64,000 nucleotides of DNA from an uncultured Flavobacteriaceae bacterium. GTDB lineage: Bacteria > Bacteroidota > Bacteroidia > Flavobacteriales > Flavobacteriaceae. Position numbers and translations under genes: made by a program. Under the pieces are notes generated by a model that saw only the letters and a list, made by a program, of their open reading frames with translations, did no database searches and had not been told where the DNA came from. Below, piece after piece: positions 4,492 through 35,940 of this stretch. Location: positions 755,319-819,318 of the forward strand of contig CANMWN010000001.1 in the NCBI GenBank assembly GCA_947501625.1. Direction: 5' to 3'. Positions within the stretch are counted from its first letter, which is position 1; every line of letters begins with the position of its first letter.

Positions 4492-4563
4492 TTCAATCAT
4501 TTTATAAGATTTAAAGATTTTTTCCGTTAATTAGCAAAACTATTAAACCCCAAATATATAGTT

Positions 4564-5178
4564 ATGAACTTTTTACCCCACAAAAAAGTAGTTATAAGTA
4601 TTTCACTTTTCTTCGTTTTTAACACTACATTTTCTCAAGATTCTCAAAATAAATGGATAGTAGGAATTGGAATAAATGCAGTGGATTTTTTTCCAACTGG
4701 CGAACCATCAGAATTTACTGGAAATAACGGAGGCTTTTTTAGCGGAATTACCAATGCAAAAGATCATTGGAATGTTTCGGCACCAACAGTAAGCATAACT
4801 CGACATTTAAAAAACCGTTTTTCAGTTGACGCTTCAATTTCAATGAATAACATCACTAAAATAGGTGTTTTTGAAACACAAAACACTTCGTATTTTGCAA
4901 TAGATGCTACTGCTCAGTATAATATTTTACAAAATTCTGAAAAATTTAAACCCTATGCTTTTGTTGGAGGAGGTTATACTTGGATTGACTCTAAAGGTTG
5001 GGGATTGGTTGATGTTGGGCTAGGAACAAATTATTGGTTTGGTAAAAAATTTGGGGTAAGGCTACAAGGTACTTATAAACATTCGGGAGATAAAGAGCAT
5101 AAGGTTTTATCTCATTTTCAATATACATTTGGTTTGGTAATGAAATTAAACACTAACTCTAAGTTTATTTGTAATTAA
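4564..5178 (+). CDS. Outer-membrane beta-barrel protein, paralogue of the OmpA N-terminal domain
   Basis: This 204-residue protein has a signal peptide ending near TFSQ and alternating hydrophobic strands. It ends in a barrel strand rather than an OmpA domain. It is clearly homologous to the N-terminal half of the OmpA protein encoded at 8577: shared segments include VGIGINAVDFFPT ([11 protein letters not shown] there), [13 protein letters not shown] ([13 protein letters not shown]) and a final YKH...LSHFQ strand. It therefore looks like a duplicate that lacks the calcium-binding repeats and peptidoglycan-binding domain. A short non-barrel tail (LNTNSKFICN) ends it. Its function is not known. 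The gene sits directly before addA. Confidence 0.8.
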   Translation: MNFLPHKKVVISISLFFVFNTTFSQDSQNKWIVGIGINAVDFFPTGEPSEFTGNNGGFFSGITNAKDHWNVSAPTVSITRHLKNRFSVDASISMNNITKIGVFETQNTSYFAIDATAQYNILQNSEKFKPYAFVGGGYTWIDSKGWGLVDVGLGTNYWFGKKFGVRLQGTYKHSGDKEHKVLSHFQYTFGLVMKLNTNSKFICN

Positions 5179-5201
5179 TTTATAATTCTAAGAAGTTACA
5201 T

Positions 5202-5209
5202 TATATTTG
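5202..5209 (+). promoter_or_regulatory. Promoter -7 element just before addA
   Basis: TATATTTG fits TAnnTTTG. It ends only 8 bases before the ATG at 5218, so the transcript would have almost no leader. No good -33 element is seen at the expected spacing, so this is tentative. Confidence 0.35.
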
Positions 5210-5217
5210 AGTATTCA

Positions 5218-8200
5218 ATGCAAACTTCTACAAATTTTCAAATTTATAATGCTTCGGCTGGAAGCGGTAAAACATTTACGCTAGTAAAAGAGTACTTGAA
5301 AATACTACTTTCAACTGGCGAAAATTTTAATTTATATCGTTTTCAAAATATTTTAGCAATTACATTTACCAATAAGGCTGCAGCCGAGATGAAAGCACGA
5401 GTTTTAAAGAATTTAAAAGATTTTTCGGAAGGCAATAAAGTAGAGATGCTTTATAAAATTGAAGAAGAAACATCTCTAGATCAAGAGGTTATCCAGCAAA
5501 GGTCTAAACGAATATTAAATACAATTTTACAAAACTATTCAGGTTTCAATATCACTACAATTGATGCTTTTACGCATAGATTAATTCGAAATTTTTCTTT
5601 TGATTTAGGGCTTTCACTCAATTTTGAAGTTGAAATGGATGCTAATCAATTATTAGCTGAGGCCGTTGATTTATTAATTTCTAAAATAGGATCGGATAAG
5701 AACTTAACGAAGGTTTTAATTGAGTATTCGTTAGAAAAATCGGAAGATGATAAATCTTGGGATATTTCAATGGACTTAAAGGAGTTTGCTAAGATTTTAT
5801 TAAATGAGAATGATATTAATCAGTTAAAAAAACTAGATGATAAGACCATTAACGAGTTTAAAAATTTAAAAAAAAACTTAATAGAAAAAAATACTGAGAT
5901 TGAAATAGTATTTAAAGAAATTGGAAATGAAGGGCTTGAGGTAATTGAATCAATGGGCTTGGAGCATAAAGATTTTTATTATTCAATGCTACCAAAACAC
6001 TTTTTGAATCTTTCTCAAAATTTTACAAAAGCAGGTTTTTTTGACCAAAACAAATTAAGAGAAAGAATTGAAGAAAACACTTTTTATTCCAATTCGAAAT
6101 CAGATGATATAAAATCGGCAATTGAAGAAATTTTACCTCCATTATTAGAATTGTATTGGAAATCTGAAAAGTTGTATGAAAAATATACACTAAACAAGTT
6201 GGTATTAAAAAGTTTAATTCCATTGGCTACATTGAAGCATATCAACGACTCTTTAAACGAGATAAAAGAACAAAATAACATTCGTTTAAATGCTGAATTT
6301 AACCAAATAATATCGGAACAAATAAAAAATGAGCCTGCTCCATTTATTTATGAGCGCTTAGGCGAAAAATTTCAATATTTTTTTATTGATGAAATGCAAG
6401 ACACATCAGAATTGCAATGGCAAAATTTAATTCCATTGGTAGAAAATGCTCTTGTGTCAGAGTCTATAGGTGGAGAAAAGGGAAAACTACTATTGGTTGG
6501 CGATGCAAAACAATCGATTTATAGATGGCGAGGAGGTAAAGCAGAGCAATTTATAGAACTAACCAATGATGCCAATCCATTTTCAATTCCAATGTCAAAG
6601 TATAATCTAGACACTAATCATAGAAGTTATTCAAATATTATTGATTTTAATAATGAATTTTTTAATCACATTTCTGAATTTTTTAATGGACAAGAATATA
6701 GAGAGATATATGTAGAAGGTAACAAACAGAAAATAAACACAAAAGAAGGAGGGTATGTGGAGATTTCATTAGTTGAAAAAAACAGAGACGATTCAGAAAA
6801 AGAATTAGTAATTCCAGATAAGGTTTTAGAAGTAATCAATAGCCTAGATTCAAATTTTAATTTGATTGATGTTTGTCTATTGGTAAGAAAAAAGAAGGAA
6901 GGAATAGCAATTGCTGATTTCTTGACAAAAAATAATGTGCCAATAATATCTTCAGAAACATTATTACTCAAAAATAATGCTGAGATACAGTTTGTAATAA
7001 ATCTTTTAAAATATATTAATCGAAATGATGATAAACAATCATTAACAGATGCAATTTATTATATTTTAAACACTAAAAGTAAAGAGCTTGATAAACATGA
7101 ATTTATCCATTCAATTATACATTTGGATATCCATAATGTTTTTGAAAAATTAAAAGATTTAGGTGTTAATTTTGATTTACAAAATTTCTTCGGTTTTTCA
7201 TTTTACAATTCTATTGAATATTTATTAAGATCATTTGATTTACATATTAGTGCAGATGCTTATATTATTTCTTTTTTAGATGTTGTTCTAGAATTTCAAA
7301 ACAAAAAGGGAGTTTCTTTACAAGAGTTTCTTGAATATTGGGACTTAAAAGAAAACAACTTAAGTATTTCTTTGCCCGAAGGTCAAAATGCTGTTCAAAT
7401 TATGACAATTCATAAATCAAAAGGATTAGAGTTTCCGATAGTAATTTTCCCTTATGACTTGGATATTTATAGAGAATTAAAGCCAAAAGTGTGGTATGAT
7501 AAATTGAATGAATATGAATTTTCAGGGTTTGAAACTTCATTAATTGATTATTCAAAGAGATTGAATTATATTGGGAATTTAGGGCAGGAATTGTATCAAA
7601 AAAGAAGAACTGAAATTCAGTTGGATAGTTTGAACTTATTGTATGTTGCATTAACTAGAGCAGAAGAACAATTATATATTATTACTGAAAAGAGACCTAA
7701 ACCAAACCCAGTTAATAATGCTACTTTTTATTCTGATTTTTTTGTAGATTTTTTGAAGTCCAAAACCAATACGGATAGATGGAAGATTAATGAACATGAA
7801 GGGTGTTTAGGTAGTAAGAAAAGACATGCAAATATTTCGAAACTAGCGAATTCAATTGATATGATTACCCAAGAAAATCTTATTTCAACAACCTGGAACA
7901 ATCATAATATTTCAATAGTTACAAACTCTTCAAAACTTTGGGATACAAAACAGGAAAAATCAATAGTTTATGGTAATTTGATTCATGAAATGTTATCAAA
8001 AATAATCTCTCATGAATATATTGATGAAGTAATTCAACGATATTTATTTGATGGAATAATAAATACTGAAGAAGAGGTAGAAATATCCAAAAAAATAAAA
8101 GAAGTTATTTTTCATCCAAGATTACAAAGATATTTTGATAAAAATAATAGGGTGCTGAATGAGCGTGAACTGTTATCTAATAGCAAGGAAATACAAATTC

Positions 8201-19090: not shown

Positions 19091-19172
19091 GCTCAAGTGG
19101 CGGAATTGGTAGACGCGCTGGATTCAAAATCCAGTTCTTTCGGGAGTGTGGGTTCGATTCCCACCTTGAGTA
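19091..19172 (+). tRNA. tRNA-Leu (anticodon CAA)
   Basis: A complete class II cloverleaf can be folded. The acceptor arm is GCTCAAG with CTTGAGT (a G-U pair at the end), and the D arm contains GGTAGACGC. The anticodon stem CTGGA/TCCAG encloses the loop TTCAAAA (anticodon CAA). A variable arm follows, and the T arm is GTGGG-TTCGATT-CCCAC. CCA is not encoded. The 3' end is the attachment site of the integrative element that follows: the last 17 bases of the tRNA belong to a repeat found again at 35884. The element restores the tRNA sequence, so the gene is intact. Confidence 0.96.
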
Positions 19173-19175
19173 CTA
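19156..19175 (+). repeat. Attachment site (att) within tRNA-Leu, left end of the element
   Basis: The 20 bases GATTCCCACCTTGAGTACTA cover the 3' half of the T arm, the acceptor strand and three bases beyond the tRNA. The same 20 bases recur in direct orientation at 35884-35903, next to the integrase gene. This is the usual signature of tyrosine-recombinase integration into a tRNA 3' end. Confidence 0.93.
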
Positions 19176-19212
19176 TAAAAGTCTGCTAATTAATTGATTA
19201 ACAGGCTTTTAT
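19175..19212 (+). terminator. Terminator at the left end of the element, behind the tRNA
   Basis: ATAAAAGTCTG pairs with CAGGCTTTTAT (one G-T pair) around an AT-rich loop that ends in a T-rich stretch. It lies just inside the element and would replace the chromosomal tRNA terminator, which was displaced to 35903-35940. Confidence 0.7.
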
Positions 19213-19267: not shown

Positions 19268-20515
19268 TTAGATTTCAATAAGTTTATTAAATACTTCTTT
19301 TGCTATTTCTTTTTCATTTCTTATTGTATTTTCATTTAATACATCTACAAATCCAAGTTTACATTTATTAGTTTCTTTATTTTTTGGGATATGATGATAT
19401 TCTCCAAAAATACTATCCTCTTGATTGACTCTTGGATATAATAACATGCTCTTCTCTGATTTCCAAAATAAATTATAAGCAAACATTTGTTTTAAATCAT
19501 CATCAGAAGGTTTATGAGAACTTACTATTTTCCATTTAGTATCAATAATAAATGTTTCTTTTAACTCATTTTTAATTACAATATCTGGTCTTATTCTTTT
19601 GTTTTCCCAAAATTTCTCTGAATTTTGTGGAGAAATATAATAACCTAAAGGCTTATTCTTTTGTAAGACTCTATAAATATACTCTTCCCATAACTTATTC
19701 ATATCAAATAATAATGTTAGCATATTATCATTACCTGAATTTAAGTTTGGAGAATAATTTAAGATTATCATTTTTGCTATATCAATAGCCCTATTGTATG
19801 GTTGAGATTTTCTATTGACGATTAGTTTTTCAAAATGAGATGAAGTAATATTAATTACTTTAAAATCTGAAAATTGAAATAAGATTCTATTTAATTTATC
19901 TTTTAAAGTAGGACTGACAAAAGAAGTTAAAATTTTTAATGCTTTAAATATAATTTGATGTAATAAATGATTGGTGTCATACATTTGATGCTCACAAAAA
20001 AAACGTTCTTTATGTACTATGTTTTTTTGAATGTTTTGGGAGAAAACTAACTTACCTTTTAATGCTAATTGATTACTTTGAACTTTTCTATATTTCTTGA
20101 TTAACCCTTTTTTTATTAAACCCTCTACTTCGTTTAAATACATTTCATAGTAGATCTCTAAAATGGAATTATATCTTTTCTCTAAGGCAGTTTCTGAAAT
20201 ATTATCAACATTTATATGCTTACAGACTTTTAGCATACTTAACAACACATTTTGCCAAGTTTTTTTTTGAGTGTTTGAATTTGAATTATTTTGATCTGCT
20301 TTTGGAAGAATTTCGACTGTTAATCCTCCAATTTGAATGACACCTACGTAACTATTAAATTTTATTCCTTTGTGAATTATTGTATAATATTTGTTATCAT
20401 TTTTTTCATTAAACTTTACCATAGCATTAAAATGACTTTCAGTAAAATCATTTTCTTTATTATCAAACTTTAATTTTTGATATTCAAATACTTGTATAAG
20501 GCTTTTATTACTCAA
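19268..20515 (-). CDS. mcrC: McrC-like endonuclease subunit of an McrBC-type restriction system
   Basis: McrC carries the nuclease activity and stimulates the McrB GTPase in restriction of modified DNA. The 415-residue protein has the N-terminal McrC fold (VGVIQIGGLTVEILPKA) and a middle helical region (RYNSILEIYYEMYLNEVEGLIKKGLI...LKGKLVF). The C-terminal PD-(D/E)xK nuclease has RIRPDIVI with the metal-binding aspartate and FIIDTKWK with the D-x-K pair. LWEEYIYRVL is typical of the family. The ATG follows the stop of the McrB-like gene by 2 bases, and this is the last gene of the five-gene operon. Confidence 0.9.
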   Translation of the reverse strand: MSNKSLIQVFEYQKLKFDNKENDFTESHFNAMVKFNEKNDNKYYTIIHKGIKFNSYVGVIQIGGLTVEILPKADQNNSNSNTQKKTWQNVLLSMLKVCKHINVDNISETALEKRYNSILEIYYEMYLNEVEGLIKKGLIKKYRKVQSNQLALKGKLVFSQNIQKNIVHKERFFCEHQMYDTNHLLHQIIFKALKILTSFVSPTLKDKLNRILFQFSDFKVINITSSHFEKLIVNRKSQPYNRAIDIAKMIILNYSPNLNSGNDNMLTLLFDMNKLWEEYIYRVLQKNKPLGYYISPQNSEKFWENKRIRPDIVIKNELKETFIIDTKWKIVSSHKPSDDDLKQMFAYNLFWKSEKSMLLYPRVNQEDSIFGEYHHIPKNKETNKCKLGFVDVLNENTIRNEKEIAKEVFNKLIEI

Positions 20516-20517
20516 TT

Positions 20518-23508
20518 TTAATTATTGTTGTAAATTGAAATAAAAGATTCTGCACTCCAATTATTAGAGTCTTTAATTAGAAAAATAGATTTCTCTCTTA
20601 AATTTTGAGCATCTTCGTATTTTTCTGAAAAATTGTTAGCAAATTCAACCTTATCTTTATCTTCTTTTAATTCTATAAATTCACTTCCAAGCACTAAGCC
20701 TATTTTACCATAATTTCCGAAGAAATATTCTTCTAATAGTGGTATTACATTCTTTTCAAATGTTCGTTTTAAATCATTAATATTTTTAATATTTATAAAA
20801 TAAGAATGCCCTATTTTATGATCTTTGTCTATTAATAACTCTATTCTATCATTTATTGTTTTTAATAGTTTTCTGATGTCAATTTCTTCAACTTCTTCTT
20901 TAGACAAAACTTCTATATTTGGAGTTACTTCCGTGAATGAAAATCTTCTTCTTAATGCAGTGTCTAAAGCCTCTACACTTCTATCCGCCGTATTCATAGT
21001 TCCAATAATATGTAAGTTGCTCGGAACTTTAAATAGTTCTTTTGAATAGGGAAGAGCAACTTCAATTTCTTCATTTGCACCACTACGTTTATCTTTCTCT
21101 AGTAAAGTAATTAACTCTCCAAAAATTCCAGAAACATTACCTCTATTAATTTCATCTATTATTAAAACATATTCTTTAGTCTTTTCATCATCTAATTTAG
21201 AGAATTTACTTTCTAAATCATCAATTTTAATATCATCGTTATTAAATTGATATATGGTTTGTTGAGATATTTTTTTGTCTACAAATAAACTTGGATTAGC
21301 ATTGAGATTCGTTGCAATCCATTCCACATCTCGAATGTGATGATAAGGAAAACTTGGAAATCTTTCATACTTGTATTCCCCTTTAATAATTCCAATTGCG
21401 TCAATAATATTATTACCCAATGAAACTAATACTATATCACCTTTTTTCATCCAGTATTTAAAAGCATGAGTTGCTGTTAAACTATATGAAGATTTTTCTA
21501 CTTCTTCTGGAAATAGATTTTGAAACTCTTGTTTATATGTTTTCCAATCCTTTGAATTAATCTGATCTAAATTATTATTACCTCCATAACCAAGCGCTAT
21601 TTGATTGTTTTCTATACACCAATCATGAACATCTTTGCGATTTTTCCCACCAAGACTCATTTTAAAATAGTTACAATTCTTGAAGTCAGTATTATTAATA
21701 TTTTGTCTTACTTCTCCTTCAACTCCTCTGGCTTTATTGGATAAAAGTTTGAAAATTCCATCTTCTACTTCATAAATAACTTTATTATTTTCTGTCTTTG
21801 GCTTTATACCTTCAACAAAATCTTCATAACTCATTGATTGATGAAATGTTGTGAAAACAATTTGACCTTGAGAAACTAGGTCTTTGTATCGATTATTTAA
21901 AACAGTCCTACTTTTTGGAACAATCCCATCAATAATTTTTAGAGCAATCTCTTTAGTTCTATAAGTTTTTCCAGTTCCAGGAGGACCATAAAGAATTTGA
22001 TTTAAAGGTTTAGGGCTTGATTTTTTAATAAGACCTAATTTTTCTTTAAAAAAAGAAATGAAATTAGAGTAGCCTTTTCCTTCGTGTATAAAAGAAGTCC
22101 TTTTCTTAAATTCAAACCTACTAATCTTTGATAATTTTATTAAACACTCGTCTGTTAAACTTGGAAAGTTTTTATCATTTAAGTAAAAAATTAAATACTC
22201 TTCAAGATTGTCAGAATAGACCTCTATTGTTGAATCAGCATAATTGTTTTTGCCTAAATATTCTATATATTCCTCTTTAATTTCTGATATATTATAACTG
22301 CCCATAATATTGCTCTTTTTTTGTTCTTCATTCCAAATCCATGCCTCGTAGGATAATTGGTAAAAAGGCTTGTTGGTTTTTGATTTAATTTGTTTTAGTA
22401 TATCTAGATAATCCTCAAAAGTTCTAAATTTAGGATTTATACCAAATATATTTTCTAAATATGGTTTTGTAGGTGCATTTATAGGGAAGTATTTTTCTGG
22501 ATTAACATTAAATAGAGCTTCTGTTAATTTTGTTCTTGCAATACCCCTTATTTGAAGTAACTCTTCAAAAGAATCATTACTAATTTCATCATTTAAAACT
22601 TGAAAGTAAAAAGACCATAATCGTTCAATTTCATTATTTACCCTTAATTTTTTATAAGGAAATAACCATACTTTTTGCGCATTAGATGATGGAATCCCAC
22701 ACTCATCGGTTGGATAATGTATTTTTAGTTGTGTAGCAATACTTCGTAAAACTTCTAACCTTCTTTCTGCTCCATATTTATATATATAGCAAAAAAATGT
22801 AAAAGGATCTATAACTGTTAAATCAATATCTAAATCATTTTCTTCTTTATCCGAAAAACCAGTTACTCCTGCTTTTTTTAAAATTTCTATTAGTTGTAGT
22901 TGGTTGTCTTTATGATTTTTTAAATAATTGGATATTTCAAGATGTGTTTTAACCCATGTAAATTTATTATCATCATTTGATTTGAAATTGGAATAATACT
23001 CCTGAAGTAATTCAAGAGCTTTTTTATAATTCCCTTTTGATTTTGAATATTCATCAGAAAAAGTATTTTGTTTTAATATTCCTTTTTTATCACCATGTAT
23101 TTCAAAACCGTGAAGAATTTTCATGACTTCATAACCACCACCTTTTTCACTAATATCGATATTTCTCTTTAGAACTTTAATTTCAATTGCTCTATGACTC
23201 ATTGAGTCTTTTAGATATGCATATATTATTCTAACTTTATCTGGAATATTTGAAAGAACCTCAAAATTATGTTTTTTTATAAAGTTATTCGTTGGTTGTC
23301 CTCCTGCTAGGTTAGGTATAGGTATATCAGGATAATTAGATTCAATATATTTTGCAGCATATTTATAAACTAGTTTCGGAGGGTAACGTTTATTATTATG
23401 GAACACATCATATTTTGTGCTATTATTTTTAGATTCCCAAGATTCATTATCTAAAAATTCAAAGGCATGTACAAACGCTTCTTCCCAATACTTATCTTCT
23501 TGACTCAT
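20518..23508 (-). CDS. mcrB: McrB-like AAA+ motor protein with ScoMcrA-type N-terminal domain and an EVE-like insertion
   Basis: This 996-residue motor should translocate DNA and recruit McrC. Residues 1-90 look like the ScoMcrA N-terminal head domain: KYDVFHNNKRYPPKLVYKYA, then LAGGQPTNNFIKKHNFEV. Residues 230-400 form a helical region also seen in McrB relatives. The AAA+ core has Walker A GPPGTGKT at 508-515 and FHQSMSYEDFVEGIKP. Walker B VLIIDEINRGN comes only at 781, followed by the MNTADRSVEALDTALRRRF sensor region. The extra 170 or so residues between them (about 605-770) resemble an EVE-type modified-base reader, ending in GDIVLVSLGNNIIDAIGIIKGEY and an aromatic WIATNL segment. Its ATG overlaps the stop of the preceding gene (TAATG). 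Confidence 0.88.
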   Translation of the reverse strand: MSQEDKYWEEAFVHAFEFLDNESWESKNNSTKYDVFHNNKRYPPKLVYKYAAKYIESNYPDIPIPNLAGGQPTNNFIKKHNFEVLSNIPDKVRIIYAYLKDSMSHRAIEIKVLKRNIDISEKGGGYEVMKILHGFEIHGDKKGILKQNTFSDEYSKSKGNYKKALELLQEYYSNFKSNDDNKFTWVKTHLEISNYLKNHKDNQLQLIEILKKAGVTGFSDKEENDLDIDLTVIDPFTFFCYIYKYGAERRLEVLRSIATQLKIHYPTDECGIPSSNAQKVWLFPYKKLRVNNEIERLWSFYFQVLNDEISNDSFEELLQIRGIARTKLTEALFNVNPEKYFPINAPTKPYLENIFGINPKFRTFEDYLDILKQIKSKTNKPFYQLSYEAWIWNEEQKKSNIMGSYNISEIKEEYIEYLGKNNYADSTIEVYSDNLEEYLIFYLNDKNFPSLTDECLIKLSKISRFEFKKRTSFIHEGKGYSNFISFFKEKLGLIKKSSPKPLNQILYGPPGTGKTYRTKEIALKIIDGIVPKSRTVLNNRYKDLVSQGQIVFTTFHQSMSYEDFVEGIKPKTENNKVIYEVEDGIFKLLSNKARGVEGEVRQNINNTDFKNCNYFKMSLGGKNRKDVHDWCIENNQIALGYGGNNNLDQINSKDWKTYKQEFQNLFPEEVEKSSYSLTATHAFKYWMKKGDIVLVSLGNNIIDAIGIIKGEYKYERFPSFPYHHIRDVEWIATNLNANPSLFVDKKISQQTIYQFNNDDIKIDDLESKFSKLDDEKTKEYVLIIDEINRGNVSGIFGELITLLEKDKRSGANEEIEVALPYSKELFKVPSNLHIIGTMNTADRSVEALDTALRRRFSFTEVTPNIEVLSKEEVEEIDIRKLLKTINDRIELLIDKDHKIGHSYFINIKNINDLKRTFEKNVIPLLEEYFFGNYGKIGLVLGSEFIELKEDKDKVEFANNFSEKYEDAQNLREKSIFLIKDSNNWSAESFISIYNNN

Positions 23509-25211
23509 TATTTTGTTGTTAATTTTCTAAAACCTCTAATTATTTGAAATATAAAAACACCTAATATAATTCTATGAACTAAATCTAAAAAATGAAGCCA
23601 ACCACTATCAATAATACCATAAGTTGAAGAAAATTTTCTTGCAGGATTAAATAGTTGCCAAAAGACTTTAAGATTATTAGTAAATTCGGACAATGTATTA
23701 TATAAATCCTTCCAACTTTTTGAAAAAGTATAATCTAATTCTGTAGAAAATATAGGTAACATTATAAGGTAAAATCCTAAAGTTATAAGAAATATAATCC
23801 AAGTAGGTTTCCACCAACTAAGACCAAAATTATTAGTTTGACTGACTGTCATTATTAGTTTATCGCTTCCCTTGTAATCTTTCCCGCTACTTTTCAATTC
23901 ATTTCTATAAGCCTGCATTTCTCTCGCTTTAAACAATAAACTATCAATTTGATTTCCAGAACTAGAAAGTGCGTGTTTTAATTGCCTAGAAATTTCACGA
24001 ATACCTCTTTGCCTTTCTTGTTCAGTTGAATTAGAACCAATTTCGAGTTTATCGTTTTCAAACCATGTAACATTAGATGTCTTAATTCTATCTAATAAAC
24101 CATTATTGATTCCAATTTTATCAAATGAAGAAAAATCAAATTCATTGAATCTTGCTGAACCTAGATCACTATCAGTAAAATAAAGCGGGCTGTTATTTGT
24201 AGCAGAACATTTACTAAAACTTAAATCGCTATAGTTGGTAAAATTATTGAATAATACGAATCTAAAAATTATTCTTTTAAATAATAATTTTAGATTTTGA
24301 TTAATTCCAGACACATGTAATTCATCAACATTCCATCCTTCAAAACTAGCAATACCCTGAAAACTAGGAGAAAATCGTAATGTTATTTTATCTATTGATT
24401 TACCAAGACCATTAAAATCAATACCCTCTACAAATTTAGCTTCAGTAATAAAGATCTCATTACAAAATGTTTTGTTTGTTCCATGAAGATCTCTGTTTTC
24501 TAGTTTGGCATTTTTATTAAATACATCTCGATGTATGAATACACCTTTAATTCGTGATCCATCAATATTAAAAGTGCCATTAAAGATATTGTCATTTAAT
24601 GTAAAACTTGTAGGACATGTTATATTCCAAAATTTAACCCATTCTCCAATTTCACAAGTTATTAGAGAAACATCTCCATCTAGTGTACTTACTCTTAAAT
24701 TTTTCGTTATTGAAGTTTTCCTTAAATGCAATTCAAATTTACCATTATGAATATCTAAAATTGTTTTTATTGTACTGTCTTTAATTCTAAGACCACCATC
24801 AATTGTCGAAGTGTTAACTTGTACACGATCAAATTCAGAATTATCGTTAATAATAAAAGCTCTCTTTAAATGATTATTATATGCAATAAATACCTGTTCA
24901 CCCCTACATTTAGATAATAAAACTGTACAGTTATAAGGATTCGTTGTTTCTTCACTATCTGATGAATTAACCTCATTAAAAACTATACCAGAATTAAATT
25001 CACAATCAAAGAATGCTAATCCGTGTTTCAAATTAACATTGTTGATTTTTACTAATTTTTTGAATACTACATTTTTAATAATTCTAAAATTCCAGTTTAT
25101 TACACTTGCATCGAGATTTACTTCAAAATCTATTTGGTATTTTTCACCTAGCAATTGATTTTCTTTTAAATTATTGTAAAATTGTTCCGGTCTTAAATTA
25201 AATCGTATCAT
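23508..25211 (-). CDS. Beta-helix/pentapeptide-like membrane protein of the defence operon
   Basis: I do not recognise a named family. The first 380 or so residues of 567 are short repeating strands of about 20-25 residues, rich in phenylalanine and asparagine. Examples are FFDCEFNSGIVFNEV, IDGGLRIKDSTIKTILDI and FTLNDNIFNGTFNIDGSRIKG. They suggest a right-handed beta-helix related to pentapeptide-repeat proteins. A charged helical region (TEQERQRGIREISRQLKHAL...LFKAREMQAYRNEL) follows. Then come one strong membrane helix (WWKPTWIIFLITLGFYLIMLPI) and a second near the end (IILGVFIFQIIRGFRK). This arrangement resembles pentapeptide-repeat proteins with a two-helix channel-like tail. Its gene overlaps mcrB by one base, so it is translated together with it. 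A membrane-acting effector or a sensor is possible. Confidence 0.7.
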   Translation of the reverse strand: MIRFNLRPEQFYNNLKENQLLGEKYQIDFEVNLDASVINWNFRIIKNVVFKKLVKINNVNLKHGLAFFDCEFNSGIVFNEVNSSDSEETTNPYNCTVLLSKCRGEQVFIAYNNHLKRAFIINDNSEFDRVQVNTSTIDGGLRIKDSTIKTILDIHNGKFELHLRKTSITKNLRVSTLDGDVSLITCEIGEWVKFWNITCPTSFTLNDNIFNGTFNIDGSRIKGVFIHRDVFNKNAKLENRDLHGTNKTFCNEIFITEAKFVEGIDFNGLGKSIDKITLRFSPSFQGIASFEGWNVDELHVSGINQNLKLLFKRIIFRFVLFNNFTNYSDLSFSKCSATNNSPLYFTDSDLGSARFNEFDFSSFDKIGINNGLLDRIKTSNVTWFENDKLEIGSNSTEQERQRGIREISRQLKHALSSSGNQIDSLLFKAREMQAYRNELKSSGKDYKGSDKLIMTVSQTNNFGLSWWKPTWIIFLITLGFYLIMLPIFSTELDYTFSKSWKDLYNTLSEFTNNLKVFWQLFNPARKFSSTYGIIDSGWLHFLDLVHRIILGVFIFQIIRGFRKLTTK

Positions 25212-25219
25212 ATCATTTT

Positions 25220-25597
25220 TTAAACTAGCAATTTATTATCCCAAAGAGCCAAAACAACATCCATTTGGGAATTATGTTCTTTTTTATCTATAAATAGTTC
25301 TTTTTTTACATGTTCCCATAATTCCTTTTTAGAAAGAGTAGGGTTTGATTTTAGTATTTTCACAGCTGTAATTGCGTACTGCTTATTTAATTTTGATCGT
25401 GTATAGTTTCCTTTTGAAATTCCTTTTATTAAACCCTCTTCACACAAACCTAAAAAAGTGCTTTTTGGACAATTTTTTTCTCTTAAACTTTTGGTTTTAA
25501 ATATTTCTTTAGTTGCCAAAATCCAAGTTTCAATAGGGTTTCCATTTTTCACGACTGCTTTTTTTGCTGTTAATCCATATTCATTGTATCTATTCAT
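25220..25597 (-). CDS. Small conserved protein (DUF6979-like) of the defence operon
   Basis: This soluble 125-residue protein has the pattern ...NCPKSTFLGLCEEGLIKGI...NKQYAITAVKIL...NSQMDVVLALWDNKLLV. It matches my memory of the DUF6979 family, short proteins often found beside restriction systems. I give the family name with caution. There are no catalytic motifs, signal peptide or membrane helix. It sits 11 bases after the restriction-modification gene and 8 bases before the beta-helix gene, clearly inside the operon. It could be a regulator, specificity factor or inhibitor. Confidence 0.65.
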   Translation of the reverse strand: MNRYNEYGLTAKKAVVKNGNPIETWILATKEIFKTKSLREKNCPKSTFLGLCEEGLIKGISKGNYTRSKLNKQYAITAVKILKSNPTLSKKELWEHVKKELFIDKKEHNSQMDVVLALWDNKLLV

Positions 25598-25608
25598 GGC
25601 GATATTTT

Positions 25609-28539
25609 TTAATTATCCTCAACTATTGCAATCTCCTCTTCATTCAAACCATATAGTTCATAAACCATTACATCTATTTCTTTGTCAGTTTGGTCGATTT
25701 GGGTTTTTAAAGCAACTGCTTTTTGTTGTTCACTATTAAAATACTCTTCCCACTCGGCTTCTTCACTTAGACTTAGTTTGATTTTCTTTTTTGATAATTC
25801 CTTTACAAAATCACCATAACTCAGCAAATACCAATCTTGTATTTTTTTTGGTAACTTTTCTAAACTTTCAAATTTACGCTGAATTGTACGTTGAAATTTT
25901 GAAGTTATATCTTGTAAATCTTTATTAATTGAAAGCATTATGTCTGCTTTTTCTATAAAAGGTTCTTGATTCTTTTTTGAGATTTTTTTTATTGGAATCT
26001 CTTTAACTTGTCCAATTCTTATTTTTGGAAAAATATCAGTATTTGCAGCAAATTTTGTTTGATAATAAAACTGTATGACTAAAGAATTTAAAATTGATAA
26101 TATATATAATGGGTTAAAATCTTCTTCAATGTTTATTTTTATCGAGTATAAACTTCTGTTTTGTTGAGTAATATTATCATTAATAAATAGAGTAGTAATC
26201 CTATTGCCAGTTTCTCTAATAATAATTCTATTACCTTCGAAGTAAAAATTATTTTTTTTATATTTTTGATATGTAGATTTATTTATAAAACTATACTTTT
26301 TTATTCCGTACCTAAAGATATCTTCACCAGTCAAAAACTGAATGTCATTCAGAGAGTTTAACACTTTATCTTTTCCAATTTCAAGACCTCTCATTATTTT
26401 TGAAATGTCTTTAATTAATATAGTGTTTAGACATATTTTGTTAATTAAATTATTTCCTGGTATATAATTATTCCAATCCTGATTAATACATTTTTTATTT
26501 TTTAAAATAGTAATTGCAGTTGGCATTTGAACATCATCAAATATTTTATCTCCTTTATCTAAAATTTCAATTATTGTAGAATTATTTAACAAATATTCTC
26601 TTAGGGTAGTATACTTCATACCTTTTATGAATAAACTAGGAGTAATAAATGAAAAGAGTCCGTCTGGTTTTAGAATTTCCAATCCTTTTTCAAAAAAGAA
26701 TGCGTATAAATCTCCACATTTTTCAGTTTTGTAATTTTTATAAAATGTATCATTTGTTTGAACATATGGTGGATTTCCAATTACCACATCAAATCCACCT
26801 TTTTTAAACACTTTTGGGAATTGTTCTTGCCAGTTAAAGGCTTTGTCACCTGCAACTGTTTTACTATCTATTAAAGAGTTACCACATTTAATATTACAGC
26901 TTAAATCGTTTAATTTACGTCTTGGTTGTGCTGTGCGAAGCCATAAAGAAAGTTTGGCAATTTCAACACTTTCTTCGTTAAGGTCTACACCATATATATT
27001 GTTTTCAAGTATGGTAGTTTCAATATCAGCAAATACCAATCCACCTCCTAACACATTGGCTTTGAGTTCGTCAATATATCTATGTTCTTTTATTAAGAAG
27101 TCTAATGCTTGGTTTAAAAACGCTCCTGAACCACATGCAGGATCACAAATAGTAAGTTGCAATAGCCAATCTCTATAAGTGTCTAATAATTTTACTAATT
27201 CTAATAATTTCTTTTTTGATCTGTTTTTTCGACTTTTAAAATATTCTTCTTCTTTAAAACCAAGTTCTTGTTTTTTCTCTTCACATAGTTCACCAACAGT
27301 ATTTTCTACAATGTATTTTGTAATGTATTTTGGTGTGTAAAAAACACCATCTTTTTTTCGTTTACTTTTTTGTTTGTCAAAATCTCCACCTTCAATTTCG
27401 GCATTTACACTTTCAATCTCATTTAGTGAGTTTTCAAAAATGTGCCCTAAAATATTTACATCTACTTGACTCTCAAAATCATAGTTTGATAATTTTCGAG
27501 TATGTTTGGCTAATAGTTCATCATCAATAATAACAGCTTCAAGTATGGTGTCAGGTTTGAATAATCCACCATTGTAAGCGTATATTTCGGCTTTTTTGCC
27601 AGTTCCTTTTCTTCCTTTGTCTAAGAAATCAAAATAGAGTTTAAATCTATTATACAATGGAACAATTGCATCTAATTCTTTTAGTTTGTTCCAGTCGTCT
27701 AATATTTTTACAGTTGAGTTTGGTGGTAATAACCCTCTATCTTCTGCAAAAAAGATAAATAGAAATCTATCAATTAGTTTTTGAGATTTTTTAAAAAGTG
27801 TTCGTTTTACATTTTTTTCTAACTGTTCTAAATCTTTTTGTTCTGTTTCAGAAGAACTTTCAGAAGGGATTAACGACCTTAAATTTTTTGCATTTCGTTT
27901 TACTAAATCTCGATATAATTCACGTTTAAAAATAGAATAATCAGTATAAAAACCCTTTGTTATTTTTTCTTCAACAGTTATTGATTCTTCTTTTATTTTT
28001 AAAGGAAGGTTGTTGATAATATTATCTTTATGAAGGCATAAATACAATAGTTCAAAATCAATTTCTGTAAGTGTAAATAGATTAAATTCTAAAAATTCAG
28101 TTGCATCATTAATATAAAATCTAAGTTTTTCAAAATTGGAAGTAATCACATATACACATCCTTTTTGATTTGCCTTATAATCGAATGCTTGTCTGCGTAT
28201 ACTTTCTAAATCTTTTGTTTTTGTTCCTTTTAATTCAATAACACCTAAAGCAGTTCCATCTTTTAATATTGCTCCATCTGCTTTTCGAGAGTTGGTTTGG
28301 TTTTTATATTCTGCTACTAAATTGAAATTGGGTTTTGGACTTAATTCGTACCCTAAAATATTGACAAACAGTTCGGTTAAAAAAATACCTTGATATTCTT
28401 CTTCTTTAGAGTTTTTAATATTCTCTTGAATAGTGGCATTATGGAAATACTTACTATATTTTTTATAAGCCTTTTGAAGAATTTCTTTTTCTTGTAGTTT
28501 AAGATGCTTTTTTAATACAGAAACTTGGTATAATGACAT
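25609..28539 (-). CDS. Type IIG restriction-modification enzyme (fused nuclease, methyltransferase and specificity domains)
   Basis: One 976-residue chain should both cut and methylate DNA, like Eco57I/MmeI-type enzymes. The N-terminal PD-(D/E)xK nuclease is seen at KADGAILKDGTALGVIELKG (D88, E102, K104). A helical connector leads to the gamma-class N6-adenine methyltransferase with motif I DPACGSGAF at 466-474, FADIETTILENNIYGVDLNEESVEIAKLSLWL, and catalytic NPPY at 589-592. The C-terminal third should be the target-recognition region, with coiled stretches near ELSKKKIKLSLSEEAEWEEYF. It is the first gene of the five-gene operon. The motifs look intact, so it is probably active. The recognition sequence cannot be read off. 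Confidence 0.9.
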   Translation of the reverse strand: MSLYQVSVLKKHLKLQEKEILQKAYKKYSKYFHNATIQENIKNSKEEEYQGIFLTELFVNILGYELSPKPNFNLVAEYKNQTNSRKADGAILKDGTALGVIELKGTKTKDLESIRRQAFDYKANQKGCVYVITSNFEKLRFYINDATEFLEFNLFTLTEIDFELLYLCLHKDNIINNLPLKIKEESITVEEKITKGFYTDYSIFKRELYRDLVKRNAKNLRSLIPSESSSETEQKDLEQLEKNVKRTLFKKSQKLIDRFLFIFFAEDRGLLPPNSTVKILDDWNKLKELDAIVPLYNRFKLYFDFLDKGRKGTGKKAEIYAYNGGLFKPDTILEAVIIDDELLAKHTRKLSNYDFESQVDVNILGHIFENSLNEIESVNAEIEGGDFDKQKSKRKKDGVFYTPKYITKYIVENTVGELCEEKKQELGFKEEEYFKSRKNRSKKKLLELVKLLDTYRDWLLQLTICDPACGSGAFLNQALDFLIKEHRYIDELKANVLGGGLVFADIETTILENNIYGVDLNEESVEIAKLSLWLRTAQPRRKLNDLSCNIKCGNSLIDSKTVAGDKAFNWQEQFPKVFKKGGFDVVIGNPPYVQTNDTFYKNYKTEKCGDLYAFFFEKGLEILKPDGLFSFITPSLFIKGMKYTTLREYLLNNSTIIEILDKGDKIFDDVQMPTAITILKNKKCINQDWNNYIPGNNLINKICLNTILIKDISKIMRGLEIGKDKVLNSLNDIQFLTGEDIFRYGIKKYSFINKSTYQKYKKNNFYFEGNRIIIRETGNRITTLFINDNITQQNRSLYSIKINIEEDFNPLYILSILNSLVIQFYYQTKFAANTDIFPKIRIGQVKEIPIKKISKKNQEPFIEKADIMLSINKDLQDITSKFQRTIQRKFESLEKLPKKIQDWYLLSYGDFVKELSKKKIKLSLSEEAEWEEYFNSEQQKAVALKTQIDQTDKEIDVMVYELYGLNEEEIAIVEDN

Positions 28540-28820: not shown

Positions 28821-30077
28821 ATGTTTGCTTTAGTAGATTGTAACAATTTTTACGCTTCATGCGAAAGGTTATTTAGACCTGATTTGCGAGATAAACCAAT
28901 TGTGGTTTTATCTAATAATGATGGATGCGTTATTGCAAGATCTAATGAAGCAAAACCATTTGTTCCAATGGGTGCTGTATATCATAAATTTAAAGATGTA
29001 ATAAAAAAAAACAATATTTATGTTTTTTCAAGTAATTATGCTTTATATGCTGATTTGAGTAAACGAGTAATGGACACTCTTCAAAACTATACTCCAGAGC
29101 AAGAAATATACAGTATAGATGAATCTTTTTTGAAGTTTGATGGATTTGACAATCACTTTAATCTTAGAGAGCATTGCCTTGATATGAAGTATGTAGTTGG
29201 TCGAAATACAGGAATACCTATTACAATAGGACTTGCCAATACAAAGGCTTTATCAAAGGTTGCAAATAGGGTTGCTAAAAAATATCCTACACAAACAAAA
29301 GGAGTACACATTATAGATTCCGAAGAAAAACGATTAAAAGCATTAAAATGGCTTAAAATAGAAGATGTTTGGGGTATTGGTAGACGTTATACCAAAAAAC
29401 TTCAAAATATAGGCGTTAATACTGCTTATGACTTTACCAAATTGAATGATAGTACAGTCAGGTCAATAATGACAATTGTAGGATTAAGGTTGAAACACGA
29501 TTTAGAAGGTAAACCAACTTTAGACTTAGACGAAATAAAAAATAAAAAAATGATTGCAACTACACGATCATTTGCAAAGGATATTGATTCATTTGATGGA
29601 GTTAGAGAACGTGTAAGTACATTTGCAAGTAGTTGTGCTGAGAAATTAAGAAGACAAAATAGTGATTGCACTTTTGTGATTGTCTTTGTAATGACTAATA
29701 GATTTAAAGATAATCACAAACAATATTATCGTAGTATTAAAATAAAGTTACCATTTGCTTCAAATTCAGATTTAACCATAAATAAACATGCAATATTTGG
29801 GCTAGAGCAAATTTTCAGAAAAGGATATTACTTTAAAAAAGCAGGCGTAATAGTTGGTGGAATAAGACCAATATTTCCAAAACAGTTAAATGTTTTTCAA
29901 GATGAAAACCCAAATCATATACAATTAATGAGTGCTATTGATAAATCAAATACTAGATATCAAAGAAAAATTATTAAATTGGGGAATCAGAATATATCAA
30001 AAACATGGATAATGAATAGACAAAAATTATCTCCATGTTATACAACTAGGTTTGAAGATTTAATTACAGTCAAATAA
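28821..30077 (+). CDS. umuC: UmuC-like Y-family translesion DNA polymerase
   Basis: This polymerase V-type catalytic subunit can copy damaged DNA. It has 418 residues. The catalytic carboxylates are visible as D6 in [17 protein letters not shown] and D100-E101 in [24 protein letters not shown] is the family finger motif. [24 protein letters not shown] and [17 protein letters not shown] (helix-hairpin-helix) follow, and a little-finger and C-terminal UmuC region ends in [11 protein letters not shown]. The usual partner umuD is not next to it. Its stop overlaps the start of the SRAP gene by one base. It is carried on the integrative element, so it is probably a mobile mutagenesis gene. Confidence 0.93.
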
Positions 30078-30787
30078 TGTGTTTTCATTTATCAAATACT
30101 AAGAAACCTATGGAATTAGAAGATAGATTTGATTCAAGATTTGAAGACATTTCAATCTTTGAACCTTCTTATCATTTGAATGGTTTTGATTATGGTACAG
30201 TTTATATAATTAAACAAGATGATGAAGATATAATTGAGCCTTCTATTTGGGGTATGTTACCTGAATATTATAGTGATGAAAAAGAATTTAGAAAGAAATT
30301 TAACACTTTAAATGCTCGTTCTGAAAAAGCTTTGCATAGTAAAATGTTTTCAGAGCCTATTATTGAAAGAAGATGCTTAATTCTTGCTGATGGATTCTTT
30401 GAAAGTAAAGAGGTGAATGGAATGAAATACCCACATTTTGTCAGATATAAAAACTATGAGCCTTTTGCTTTTGCGGGAATATATAATGAACATGGACTAG
30501 GAGAGTACTCATGTTCAATATTAACTACAGAAGCAAATTCTTTTATGGCAGAAATTCATAACACTAAAAAAAGAATGCCTTTAATACTTGATAAGACAAC
30601 AGAAAAATTATGGATTGACAATTCTTTAAATAATATTGAAATACTGGACTTAATTAAAACTGGATTTACTAAAGAAAAGTTTGAAGCTTATACTGTTTCG
30701 AAAGATTTAACTAATAGTAGAGTTAGAAGTAATCATTCTAATATATTAAAAAAAGTAGAATATGAAGAGTTAAAAACATTATTTTAA
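30077..30787 (+). CDS. SOS response-associated peptidase (SRAP, YedK/HMCES family)
   Basis: SRAP proteins form a covalent thiazolidine link to abasic sites in single-stranded DNA and so shield them. After removal of methionine the catalytic cysteine 2 (MCFH) is exposed. The other key residues are present: N79 in LNARSE, E109 in ADGFFE and H161 in IHNTKKRMP. The length of 236 is usual. It is translationally coupled to umuC (TAATG), which suggests a damage-tolerance pair. Abasic-site shielding and translesion synthesis act on the same single-stranded substrate, so joint action is plausible. Confidence 0.93.
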   Translation: MCFHLSNTKKPMELEDRFDSRFEDISIFEPSYHLNGFDYGTVYIIKQDDEDIIEPSIWGMLPEYYSDEKEFRKKFNTLNARSEKALHSKMFSEPIIERRCLILADGFFESKEVNGMKYPHFVRYKNYEPFAFAGIYNEHGLGEYSCSILTTEANSFMAEIHNTKKRMPLILDKTTEKLWIDNSLNNIEILDLIKTGFTKEKFEAYTVSKDLTNSRVRSNHSNILKKVEYEELKTLF

Positions 30788-31777: not shown

Positions 31778-32968
31778 TTAATCTGATATAAAATTTGACT
31801 TTTCAAAAGTAAAATAACGCCCTTTACAATTTGAGCTTTCAACAAAGTAATTATTTGTTGCAGGATTTATGGTTAAAAAGTGTTTAGAATACGATCCGTT
31901 TTTACTTGTTAATCCAAACTTTGACTTTAAAACTTCTGAAATTTTAAAAGTTGAAACTCTAATATTATTTTTAGATAATTGTTCGACCAAATCTCCTAAA
32001 GAATACTTTAATTCATCAACTTCAAATTTTATAAAATTATCAATTAAAATTTCCTCTATTTCTTTGTTTAAATAGGTTTTATTTCCTTTGACTAACTTTT
32101 GTAGTGCAACTGTAAATATTTGCTCTTTAGTAAACCACATTCTAGTTTTTCTAGGAGTTGTGATTTTCCGTTTGTCGATAAAATTTATAAACGAAGGCAA
32201 TTCATCTAATAAGTCCTTTAATAAATCAGGATTTTCATTTTCATCGGCTAGCGTAGGTACTTTTCTTACCCAATATCTAATTTCATTTTTGTCTATAATA
32301 ATAAAGTTCTCTTCATTATTTGAGCATAAAATAAATTTTCCAAAGAAAAAAGATTCAATTTTATCTACACCTTTTGATTCAGTTTTATAAGATTGTGCAG
32401 TAGATAGATTTTTGATTCTTTCACTATCTTCCTTTTTATCTAATAATACTTCATCAACAGAAATGATTAATTTAGAAGACCAATCAGAATTAAATCTACT
32501 TCTAAAGTCTTCATTTTTATTGATTGTCATATTGCCTTGAAAAATTAATTTCAACCAATTTAAAAAGGTGGTTTTTCCTGTTTTACGCTCTTCACTTACC
32601 AAACATAATATTGGCAATAATTGAGTTGGAAAATGCCATAAAATTGATAAATAATCTAATCCGATTTGTAATTGCTCTCCAAAAATATGTTTTAAAAATT
32701 GTTGTGTTTTAGGATAATCAGCATTCATAAATTCATGTTCAACTTTTTCATACTTATTATAGAAACCTTTAATATTTTGTTCATAATTTGTGTGAGAAGG
32801 AATTAAACAAAATCCATCATATTTTTCAATAGTTGCAATATAATCTTTACCTTCATCAGTAATAATTTCACTTTTGCGCCATTTCAATAACGTTTGGCAG
32901 GTATCTCCACTATGTAAGGGGACTTGCCCTTTTTTATAATAATCTGTACCGATTCTAAGATATTCCAT
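31778..32968 (-). CDS. Primase/helicase-type replication protein of the element (superfamily 3-like ATPase)
   Basis: This 396-residue protein resembles the primase-helicase proteins of Bacteroidota satellites and prophages. A Walker A-like SEERKTGKTTFLNWLK is at 125-140 and a Walker B-like KLIISVDEV at 166-174. FGKFILCSNNEENFIIID is the usual sensor region, with the following RYWVRKVP. A C-terminal winged-helix-like part ends it. There is no clear primase active site, so it may be helicase only. It probably starts replication of the excised element. It overlaps the preceding small gene by 14 bases and faces the repeat-rich region. Confidence 0.8.
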   Translation of the reverse strand: MEYLRIGTDYYKKGQVPLHSGDTCQTLLKWRKSEIITDEGKDYIATIEKYDGFCLIPSHTNYEQNIKGFYNKYEKVEHEFMNADYPKTQQFLKHIFGEQLQIGLDYLSILWHFPTQLLPILCLVSEERKTGKTTFLNWLKLIFQGNMTINKNEDFRSRFNSDWSSKLIISVDEVLLDKKEDSERIKNLSTAQSYKTESKGVDKIESFFFGKFILCSNNEENFIIIDKNEIRYWVRKVPTLADENENPDLLKDLLDELPSFINFIDKRKITTPRKTRMWFTKEQIFTVALQKLVKGNKTYLNKEIEEILIDNFIKFEVDELKYSLGDLVEQLSKNNIRVSTFKISEVLKSKFGLTSKNGSYSKHFLTINPATNNYFVESSNCKGRYFTFEKSNFISD

Positions 32969-33303: not shown

Positions 33304-33585
33304 TTAAAAGGTTTTATTTTTAAGTGAATACTTAGTTGCAACTCGCTCCAACTCTTCTTTTGAAGATTGACGATTTTGTAATAACCAATGATCTAACTCT
33401 TCTTTTTTGAAGAAGATTAACTTTCCTTGTGGTTTGTAATAAGGAATGTTTTTGTTAGATGTATGTTTATACATTTTACTCTTTGACAAATTGCAATACT
33501 TACATGCTTCGTCAAAATTGAATACTGCTTTTTGAAGAAAAAGATTGTTTTTAATCTCCTCCAACGACTTTTTAATTTCTTCCAT
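33304..33585 (-). CDS. AlpA/excisionase-like helix-turn-helix protein
   Basis: This 93-residue DNA-binding protein contains a MerR-type winged helix of the excisionase family: FNFDEACKYCNLSKSKMYKHTSNKNIPYYKPQGKLIFFKKEELDHWL. An N-terminal helix precedes it. Proteins like this act as recombination directionality factors or activators of the integrase promoter in prophages and satellites. The upstream gap (33586-33733) carries palindromes that could be its operator. Confidence 0.85.
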   Translation of the reverse strand: MEEIKKSLEEIKNNLFLQKAVFNFDEACKYCNLSKSKMYKHTSNKNIPYYKPQGKLIFFKKEELDHWLLQNRQSSKEELERVATKYSLKNKTF

Positions 33586-34668: not shown

Positions 34669-35748
34669 TTAAAATTTTAATTCTGGTAAATTATCAACCG
34701 CATCATCTTTTAGGTTGTCAATGTAATTTAAGTATTTAGTTGTTTCTCTAGTTGATGCGTGACCTAAAGAGTCTGCAACAGTTTTAAGATTTGCACCATA
34801 TTGCAAGAGTTGGGTAGCAAAAGTGTGTCTAGCACAATAAAACGTTATGTGTTTATTGATTTTGGCTCTTTTAACCCAATTTTTTATACATTTATTTACA
34901 GCAGTATCGGATATAAATTTTTCATTTCGACTTTTTAAATCAAAAACATGAATTTCGTTGTCTTGACGATTGCCTATTAACTTTATCAACCCTTCTTTTA
35001 ATTTTATTTCAACTTTTTGATTTGTTTTTTCCCTTTTGGTTGTTAAACGATTATCTATTACATTAATCCATTTGAGCATTTTAATTTCAGCAAATCCCAG
35101 ACCAGTATAACAAGCAAATAAAAAAGCATTTTTCACTTCACTATTACCACATTGAGTTTTTGCTAGTTTTCTTAACTCATTAGTTGTTAGGATGTTTTTT
35201 TTGATTGTATCACTTGTACTGCTTTTTTTAAATCTAATATTTAAAGTAGGATCTTCTTTTAGCAATCCTTTTAAAACAGCATCTTTTATAATTTTCTTAA
35301 ATCTTGCAAAATAATTACGTGGAGTTTCTCCATTTAACCCAGATTTATCAGTCAAAAAATCTTTATATCCACTAATTATTGAAGGAGTAATATCAACAAC
35401 TTTTAGCTTTTCGTTTTTAATATACCCCTTAAATTTACTCAAAGTTGCTTCAATCATACGCACATCTTTTTTTGTATAATTATCAATAAAAGTTTGTGCA
35501 AAGTCAAAAAAATTAACCCTTCTAAGATGTTTGGGTAGGTAGTTGATGTTTTTTGTAATTAGTTCAATTTCTCTTTGAGACCGAATAAAGTTTGCAATTT
35601 CTTTTTTTTCGGCTCTAATATTTTTTGAATCTGACGAAAGTAATTTAATATCTAAAAATTCATAATCCCTTTCTCCATCTACATAAATGTCAAGATAAAA
35701 CCTAACACTTCCTTTGGCTAATTTTTTTTCACGAAGTTTTACTGTCAT
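34669..35748 (-). CDS. Tyrosine recombinase (integrase) of the element, variant active site
   Basis: This 359-residue integrase should act at the tRNA-Leu att site 135 bases away. An Arm-type N-terminal domain (residues 1-60) and a SAM-like core-binding domain (75-165) are followed by the catalytic domain. The nucleophile Y339 lies in TKYLNYID, with R307 in CARHTFAT and H330 in LGHAS. The first arginine of the usual R-K-H-R-H-Y set is replaced by glycine (G218 in TGLGFAEI). The histidine of the HxxR box is tyrosine (Y304). The lost first arginine is also known from Bacteroidota integrases such as IntDOT. It heads a unit with the 309-residue gene. Confidence 0.93.
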   Translation of the reverse strand: MTVKLREKKLAKGSVRFYLDIYVDGERDYEFLDIKLLSSDSKNIRAEKKEIANFIRSQREIELITKNINYLPKHLRRVNFFDFAQTFIDNYTKKDVRMIEATLSKFKGYIKNEKLKVVDITPSIISGYKDFLTDKSGLNGETPRNYFARFKKIIKDAVLKGLLKEDPTLNIRFKKSSTSDTIKKNILTTNELRKLAKTQCGNSEVKNAFLFACYTGLGFAEIKMLKWINVIDNRLTTKREKTNQKVEIKLKEGLIKLIGNRQDNEIHVFDLKSRNEKFISDTAVNKCIKNWVKRAKINKHITFYCARHTFATQLLQYGANLKTVADSLGHASTRETTKYLNYIDNLKDDAVDNLPELKF

Positions 35749-35883
35749 AAAATTGGTAACAAGAGAGTAACAAAAATATGAAAAATAGAGGTAAAAAAGA
35801 GAAAAAATATTTTTTTTGTTTTTTATAAAGCCTTATACTTATTGCCTTTGTGTATTTTTTGTTTTCCTTTATTAAATAGTTTG

Positions 35884-35903
35884 ATTCCCACCTTGAGTAC
35901 TAA
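35884..35903 (+). repeat. Attachment site copy, right end of the element
   Basis: This is an identical copy of the 20-base att core at 19156-19175, including the last 17 bases of tRNA-Leu. The rest of the tRNA is absent here, so this is an att scar and not a gene. Confidence 0.93.
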
Positions 35904-35940
35904 AAAAGACCTTAGTTTTAATTTCTAAGGTCTTTTTTTA
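35903..35940 (+). terminator. Terminator after the right att site (original tRNA-Leu terminator)
   Basis: AAAAAAGACCTTAG pairs with CTAAGGTCTTTTTTT around a 9-base loop, flanked by A- and T-runs. It ends both the displaced tRNA unit (plus strand) and the dioxygenase-like gene (minus strand). Confidence 0.9.

Follow-up and report, generated by a model that had tools for sequence, protein, structure and literature searches.

Gene Content of the Restriction Operon

The window analysed here is a stretch of 64,000 nucleotides (nt) on contig CANMWN010000001.1 of an uncultured Flavobacteriaceae bacterium, and it contains a five-gene operon (28539-19268, minus strand) in which a type IIG restriction enzyme-methyltransferase (IIG) is joined to the two subunits of an McrBC system through two helper genes, one for a DUF6979 protein and one for a beta-helix membrane protein (BHM). 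The host genome comprises 2.66 Mb in 11 contigs and falls within the family that also includes Algibacter pacificus and Flavobacterium omnivorum. The gene order given in the initial annotation, with intergenic gaps of 11, 8, -1 and 2 bases, was confirmed from the coordinates of the open reading frame calls, and the co-directional genes and these gaps bear out its view of a single packed operon. Comparably tight gene packing is frequent among bacterial operons. Four terminator-like sites were found, every one on the strand opposite to the operon.

The IIG protein scores 848.6 bits against the PADLOC model REase_MTase_IIG and matches the Pfam families Eco57I, N6_Mtase and TaqI_C. Its catalytic motifs are in place (D88..ELK, DPACGSG at 466 and NPPY at 589), and the nuclease, N6-adenine methyltransferase and recognition domains all lie within one protein, as defines a type IIG enzyme. 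An assignment to BREX was rejected on a PglX score of 130.9 bits vs. a curated cut-off of 500. The McrB-like protein matches Pfam AAA_5 and the PDB entry 6ut3 (E 7.1e-61), and McrC matches PF10117 with 214.3 bits; the Walker motifs and NxxD signature (MNTADRS) of the former, with the PD-(D/E)xK motif (D311..DTK) of the adjoining latter, are those of an McrBC (type IV) system. McrC has a TTG start, and its homologues in other McrBC regions have a similar beginning, as judged by eye. By their motifs the IIG gene and the McrBC pair both look intact. Restriction-modification (RM) and type IV genes thus share one tight co-directional operon, the arrangement of an RM operon with an embedded type IV system.

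The insert between the Walker motifs of McrB, a candidate for modified-base recognition, matches PADLOC PDC-S02 (E 3.1e-11) and is common to the window and loci L094-L099. It matches nothing in Pfam or the PDB, and its identity as an EVE domain was not confirmed. The N-terminus, the middle and the insert of McrB each match a different set of McrB regions, so that the protein appears to be a mosaic, as expected of exchangeable specificity parts.

Regarding the two helpers, the DUF6979 protein scores 149.6 bits in the Pfam scan. It gives weak PADLOC matches to an AbiEi-type winged helix (best E 2.9e-5), and its confident model is without a match in the PDB (best E 2.2). No paper naming the family was found. 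The AlphaFold2 model of BHM shows beta-helix strands to about residue 370, mostly with a predicted local distance difference test (pLDDT) score of 80-97, followed by helices; hydrophobic segments lie at residues 472-490 and, more weakly, 537-555. A hydrophobic C-terminal segment is kept in all 22 family members examined, and nine of them have another segment above that threshold. The BHM protein of the window has no Pfam match over the curated score, pentapeptide families included, and Pentapeptide_3 exceeds the cut-off in 8 of 10 relatives scanned, those of L114 and L153 falling just below it. A known solved fold was rejected for BHM, the Foldseek search yielding weak beta-helix matches only (best E 1.4e-2, listed TM-scores ≤ 0.27).

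The Mobile Island

The operon is cargo of a 16.7-kb integrase-bearing island inserted at tRNA-Leu(caa) (Table 1). The attachment repeats, the integrase and an empty site in a relative are those of a tRNA-integrated mobile island: in L219, from a genome of the same genus, the dCMP deaminase gene, which the window has on the far side of the island, comes directly after prs and tRNA-Leu, and a single copy of the repeat core was seen in that stretch. The same tRNA-Leu(caa)/prs site elsewhere holds a Lamassu system (L158), a type I RM system (L169) or a different mobile element (L220), which makes it a hotspot of integration. The island also carries genes for a UmuC-like polymerase and an SRAP protein (28821-30787), divergent from the restriction operon. 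Outside the island, a C5 cytosine methyltransferase gene is located at 49181-50401; if its product marks the host genome, McrBC would need to tolerate that mark.

Table 1. Features of the restriction operon and of its island, in window coordinates.
Feature	Position	Strand	Remarks
Type IIG restriction enzyme-methyltransferase	25609..28539	-	976 amino acids (aa); PADLOC, Pfam, motifs
DUF6979 protein	25220..25597	-	125 aa; all-helical model, pLDDT 94.9; phrog_5039
BHM (beta-helix membrane protein)	23508..25211	-	567 aa; AlphaFold2 model, hydrophobic segments; relatives match Pfam Pentapeptide_3
McrB-like GTPase	20518..23508	-	996 aa; Walker A 508, Walker B 783, MNTADRS 838
McrB insert, possible specificity domain	21295..21672	-	residues 613-738, between Walker A and B
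McrC nuclease subunit	19268..20515	-	415 aa, TTG start; PF10117; D311..DTK
tRNA-Leu(caa), attachment gene	19091..19173	+	
Left attachment repeat (3' end of tRNA)	19152..19181	.	28/30 nt identical to 35879-35908
Right attachment repeat	35879..35908	.	
Island primase/helicase-like protein (DUF5906)	31778..32968	-	
Island HTH_17 protein	33304..33585	-	
Island tyrosine integrase	34669..35748	-	Pfam Phage_integrase, phrog_1; adjoins right repeat

Conservation of the Five-Gene Set

The distribution of the genes was followed in an even sample of 395 Bacteroidota genomes, the host's own counted in. DUF6979 and BHM are present in four genomes each, the IIG family in 22 (E ≤ 1e-60) and McrB in 48 (E ≤ 1e-20); the surroundings of IIG were compared in all 21 other genomes and those of McrB in 19 of the 47 others. 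The window's IIG family occurs in none of the 19 McrB regions, L097 holding a weaker relative with 32% identity. Two short BHM patterns, which miss distant relatives, were also run over 84,980 species genomes; IIG and McrBC are absent from the three loci that they matched. Outside the window, the exact set of five was seen neither in the 395 genomes nor in this two-pattern scan, and the closest locus, L164, holds three of the five genes (BHM-like, McrB and McrC). The initial annotation had taken the five genes for one functional unit and had named confinement of the set to one strain as a result that would refute its reading. Within our sampling the set is indeed confined to this strain, and a conserved system of five genes is rejected, other loci holding at most three of them. 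We read what recurs as a pattern with interchangeable parts, namely a front-line RM system, an accessory cassette and a type IV enzyme, of which the operon is one case.

Type IV Enzymes in Company with RM Genes

McrBC operons could be read in 18 of the 19 McrB regions, and three of them (L113, L101 and L097) include RM-type genes. The order in L113 is HsdM-HsdS-McrB-McrC-HsdR, and the L101 operon also has type I genes. L097 (6958-17958) combines a methyltransferase that is a relative of IIG, a PifA-like KAP ATPase, two genes that look AbiE-like by eye, McrB and McrC. In L164, McrBC follows HsdR. Another type IV enzyme, GmrSD, accompanies the window's IIG family at two loci. The order in L079 is IIG, a gene of 293 aa, a SIR2-like gene and GmrSD. 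In L153, which entered the analysis through the BHM search and not through IIG, the IIG gene is present only as its 3' end, at the contig edge and with an in-frame stop close to base 105; BHM, a 222-aa gene, GmrSD, SIR2 and HerA come after it. The GmrSD proteins of the two loci are 65% identical. Among the 21 other IIG regions, one has GmrSD; of 40 random stretches, none has GmrSD or McrC. Neighbour names such as HsdS, RhuM and SIR2 (except in L153 and L079) that lack a family match were assigned by eye.

Recurrence of BHM and DUF6979 with RM Genes

A BHM profile of four rows, the window and Algibacter sequences among them, was searched against 396 genomes of the family, and 21 loci in 20 genomes were kept at E ≤ 1e-8. 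HsdM, HsdR or IIG lies within 5 kb in nine of these loci: the window, L151 (the Algibacter locus, also labelled L114), L153, L157, L163, L164, L165, L168 and L169. The controls were 40 random 19.9-kb stretches from 12 contigs of 12 of the same genomes, and one of these stretches (L201) itself holds a BHM-family gene; an RM match was found in a single stretch, L177, which overlaps the Algibacter locus itself. Fisher's test gives p = 1.3e-4 and, with the window and Algibacter removed as members of the query (7/19), p = 9e-4, both rough values because some control stretches overlap. In L157, L164, L165 and L168, BHM is flanked by HsdR on one side and, on the other, by a gene that looks HsdS-like by eye. 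At the RM-linked loci the gene is embedded in or adjoins an RM operon, as with PrrC and RloC. Comparable places are taken by other candidate back-up genes, AAA_13 in L163 and AbiV in L114. RM-linked members occur in three starred groups of the BHM tree, and each of these groups also has one unlinked member.

Three BHM loci among those without an RM match within 5 kb have other links: a Lamassu system (L158), a PDC-S28 gene (L160) and a GmrSD_N fragment (L152). In L158 (9909-14820), the BHM-family gene is 12 bases behind LmuA, LmuC and LmuB. The BHM of L152 (8730-10747, fragment included) is 69% identical to that of the window, and its gene lies 23 bases behind the 98-residue GmrSD_N fragment; a C5 methyltransferase gene is 4.6 kb from it. 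The copy of Flavobacterium omnivorum (L014/L115, around 4178-5728) is broken by four stops. The window's BHM gave no records in the plasmid scan, and two of its RM-embedded relatives gave two each, three of the four being annotated as pentapeptide repeat proteins and one as hypothetical. Single-sequence scans of viral contigs revealed no relative.

DUF6979 adjoins a BHM-family gene in four of the 21 loci (the window, L151, L163 and L169), all of them RM loci, and the proteins of the latter three are 52-56% identical to that of the window. Three other matches in the phylum are more distant; RM genes were not seen alongside by eye, and no match to IIG, McrB or McrC was obtained near them. DUF6979 was also found in 13 loci on 12 viral contigs (L138-L150), in settings that look phage-like or inovirus-like by eye; the family is therefore also a phage accessory gene. 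A plasmid scan gave one record, among insertion sequences. The earlier reading of the two as accessory genes is supported in that the families of both recur with restriction operons.

Proposed Function and Alternative Explanations

Gene content, packing, motifs and mobility are matters of direct observation, as is the repeated association of RM genes with the BHM family and DUF6979. On these grounds we give a probability of about 0.5 to the reading that the locus is a composite restriction operon on a tRNA-Leu island, with IIG and McrBC as two layers of restriction, BHM as a fail-safe and DUF6979 as a partner or regulator. The layering of RM and type IV restriction is its more probable part; for this part we infer co-expression of the genes, the activities of the enzymes and the division of targets between them. 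IIG would mark the host DNA and cut incoming DNA that lacks the mark, and McrBC would cut phage DNA whose modified bases shield it against IIG. BHM may be a membrane-bound accessory kept with restriction operons, most likely as a last-line fail-safe: its beta-helix would sense a blocked or engaged restriction complex, and its membrane part would then harm the membrane. This role, drawn by analogy with PrrC, is a tentative proposal. DUF6979 may act as a small partner or regulator. If BHM is a restriction-linked fail-safe, DNA restriction would be tied to membrane-targeting abortive infection, and BHM is predicted to be harmless while restriction works and harmful once it is blocked. A still more speculative form would make BHM and DUF6979 together an undescribed transferable fail-safe that type I or IIG operons take up as a module, in many cases next to a type IV layer; the restriction complex would keep it silent, and blocking of restriction by a phage would release it on the membrane. 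Such a cassette would parallel PrrC but act on the membrane, and Lamassu would have borrowed it as well (L158).

Several observations weigh against the composite, fail-safe-bearing operon. McrBC adjoins none of the 21 other IIG genes, of which two are only half seen because L075 stops at this gene and L112 begins within it. No RM match lies within 5 kb in 12 of the 21 BHM loci, and most of the nine that remain after the three with other links are without a defence link, as judged by eye. BHM-family genes are absent from the fetched IIG and McrBC regions except for a borderline match in L077 (E 0.0014). RM labels cluster in the BHM tree no more strongly than in shuffles (116 of 500 were as low), and the BHM model has a pLDDT < 55 over much of its C-terminal membrane part.

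It is possible, though doubtful, that IIG, DUF6979, BHM and McrBC are merely independent cargo stacked in one transcribed slot at the hotspot, without any cooperation. The exact set is found only here, the same tRNA-Leu/prs site carries different cargo in L158, L169 and L220, and DUF6979 also occurs away from RM genes, in phage-like contigs, all of which would agree with such stacking. However, BHM and DUF6979 co-occur in the sample at RM loci only (4/4), and BHM sits inside type I operons, between an HsdS-like gene and HsdR, at four loci; neither is favoured by chance stacking. Quite improbable, in our estimate, is a role of BHM and DUF6979 in regulating or restraining the nucleases rather than in killing, for example with the beta-helix as a DNA-mimic brake that keeps IIG or McrBC in check at the membrane during entry of the island into a new host. 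DNA mimicry is a property of pentapeptide proteins of the MfpA/Qnr type. RM-linked BHM relatives match Pentapeptide_3, which fits a brake of this kind, as would the presumed need of a mobile RM element for nuclease control; MfpA/Qnr-type proteins are among the fold matches of BHM, weakly (E 3.0). A DNA mimic has, however, no need of the C-terminal hydrophobic segment that all 22 members keep, and BHM relatives also stand beside a Lamassu set and a PDC-S28 gene.

Comparison with Known Systems

The operon had been proposed in the initial annotation as a possibly undescribed layered defence. This novelty is not upheld, because the addition of a type IV enzyme to RM operons is already in the literature: type IV systems in or beside RM-type operons have been described, and their complementary action has been shown or proposed (PMC11411939, PMC8565348, PMC11090510). 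TgvAB is a GmrSD-like type IV system embedded in the type I RM operon of VPI-2, and its complementary action was shown (PMC11411939). The likeness to the window is close, as VPI-2 has a five-gene cluster on a genomic island, with RM and a two-gene type IV system in one operon; it differs in having type I RM and a GmrSD-like system, whereas the window has IIG and McrBC plus DUF6979 and the membrane protein (PMC11411939). On pEFER, BREX and the type IV enzyme BrxU were shown to give complementary protection (PMC8565348). Here, too, a methylation-based system and a type IV enzyme share one defence island, but this one has the BREX core genes and no McrBC, and BHM is not mentioned in the part of the paper available to us (PMC8565348). 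Operons that combine McrBC with type I RM or with predicted DNA methyltransferases are also on record (PMC11090510). They resemble the window in the apparent sharing of an operon with RM or methyltransferase genes and in the inserts in the GTPase domain of McrB; in the available part of that source, IIG with DUF6979 and BHM is not mentioned and the word "pentapeptide" has 0 occurrences (PMC11090510). In the E. coli immigration control region, a GmrSD homologue replaces McrBC (PMC12707154). Together, these studies already cover both the layering and the swapping of restriction systems (PMC11411939, PMC8565348, PMC11090510, PMC12707154).

The nearest known counterpart proposed for BHM is PrrC of EcoprrI, which is encoded in a type I operon and acts once restriction is blocked (PMC3874165, PMC12707154). 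The two are alike in that an RM operon contains the gene. An anticodon nuclease in the case of PrrC (PMC3874165, PMC12707154), the protein has no enzyme domain recognised by Pfam in the case of BHM. Membership of BHM in the PrrC/RloC family was rejected, as the Pfam scan found no ATPase or anticodon nuclease domain, and BHM could at most work like these proteins. The available parts of three other papers add nothing on BHM (PMC10030836, PMC7641849, PMC4619093). No description of BHM as a recurrent part of RM operons was found in the literature searched, which did not cover a preprint on defences embedded in immune systems that may list such genes (doi 10.1101/2024.01.29.577857). In comparison with these systems, what is new here is that IIG is joined to McrBC with these two helpers and that BHM recurs as a component of RM operons.

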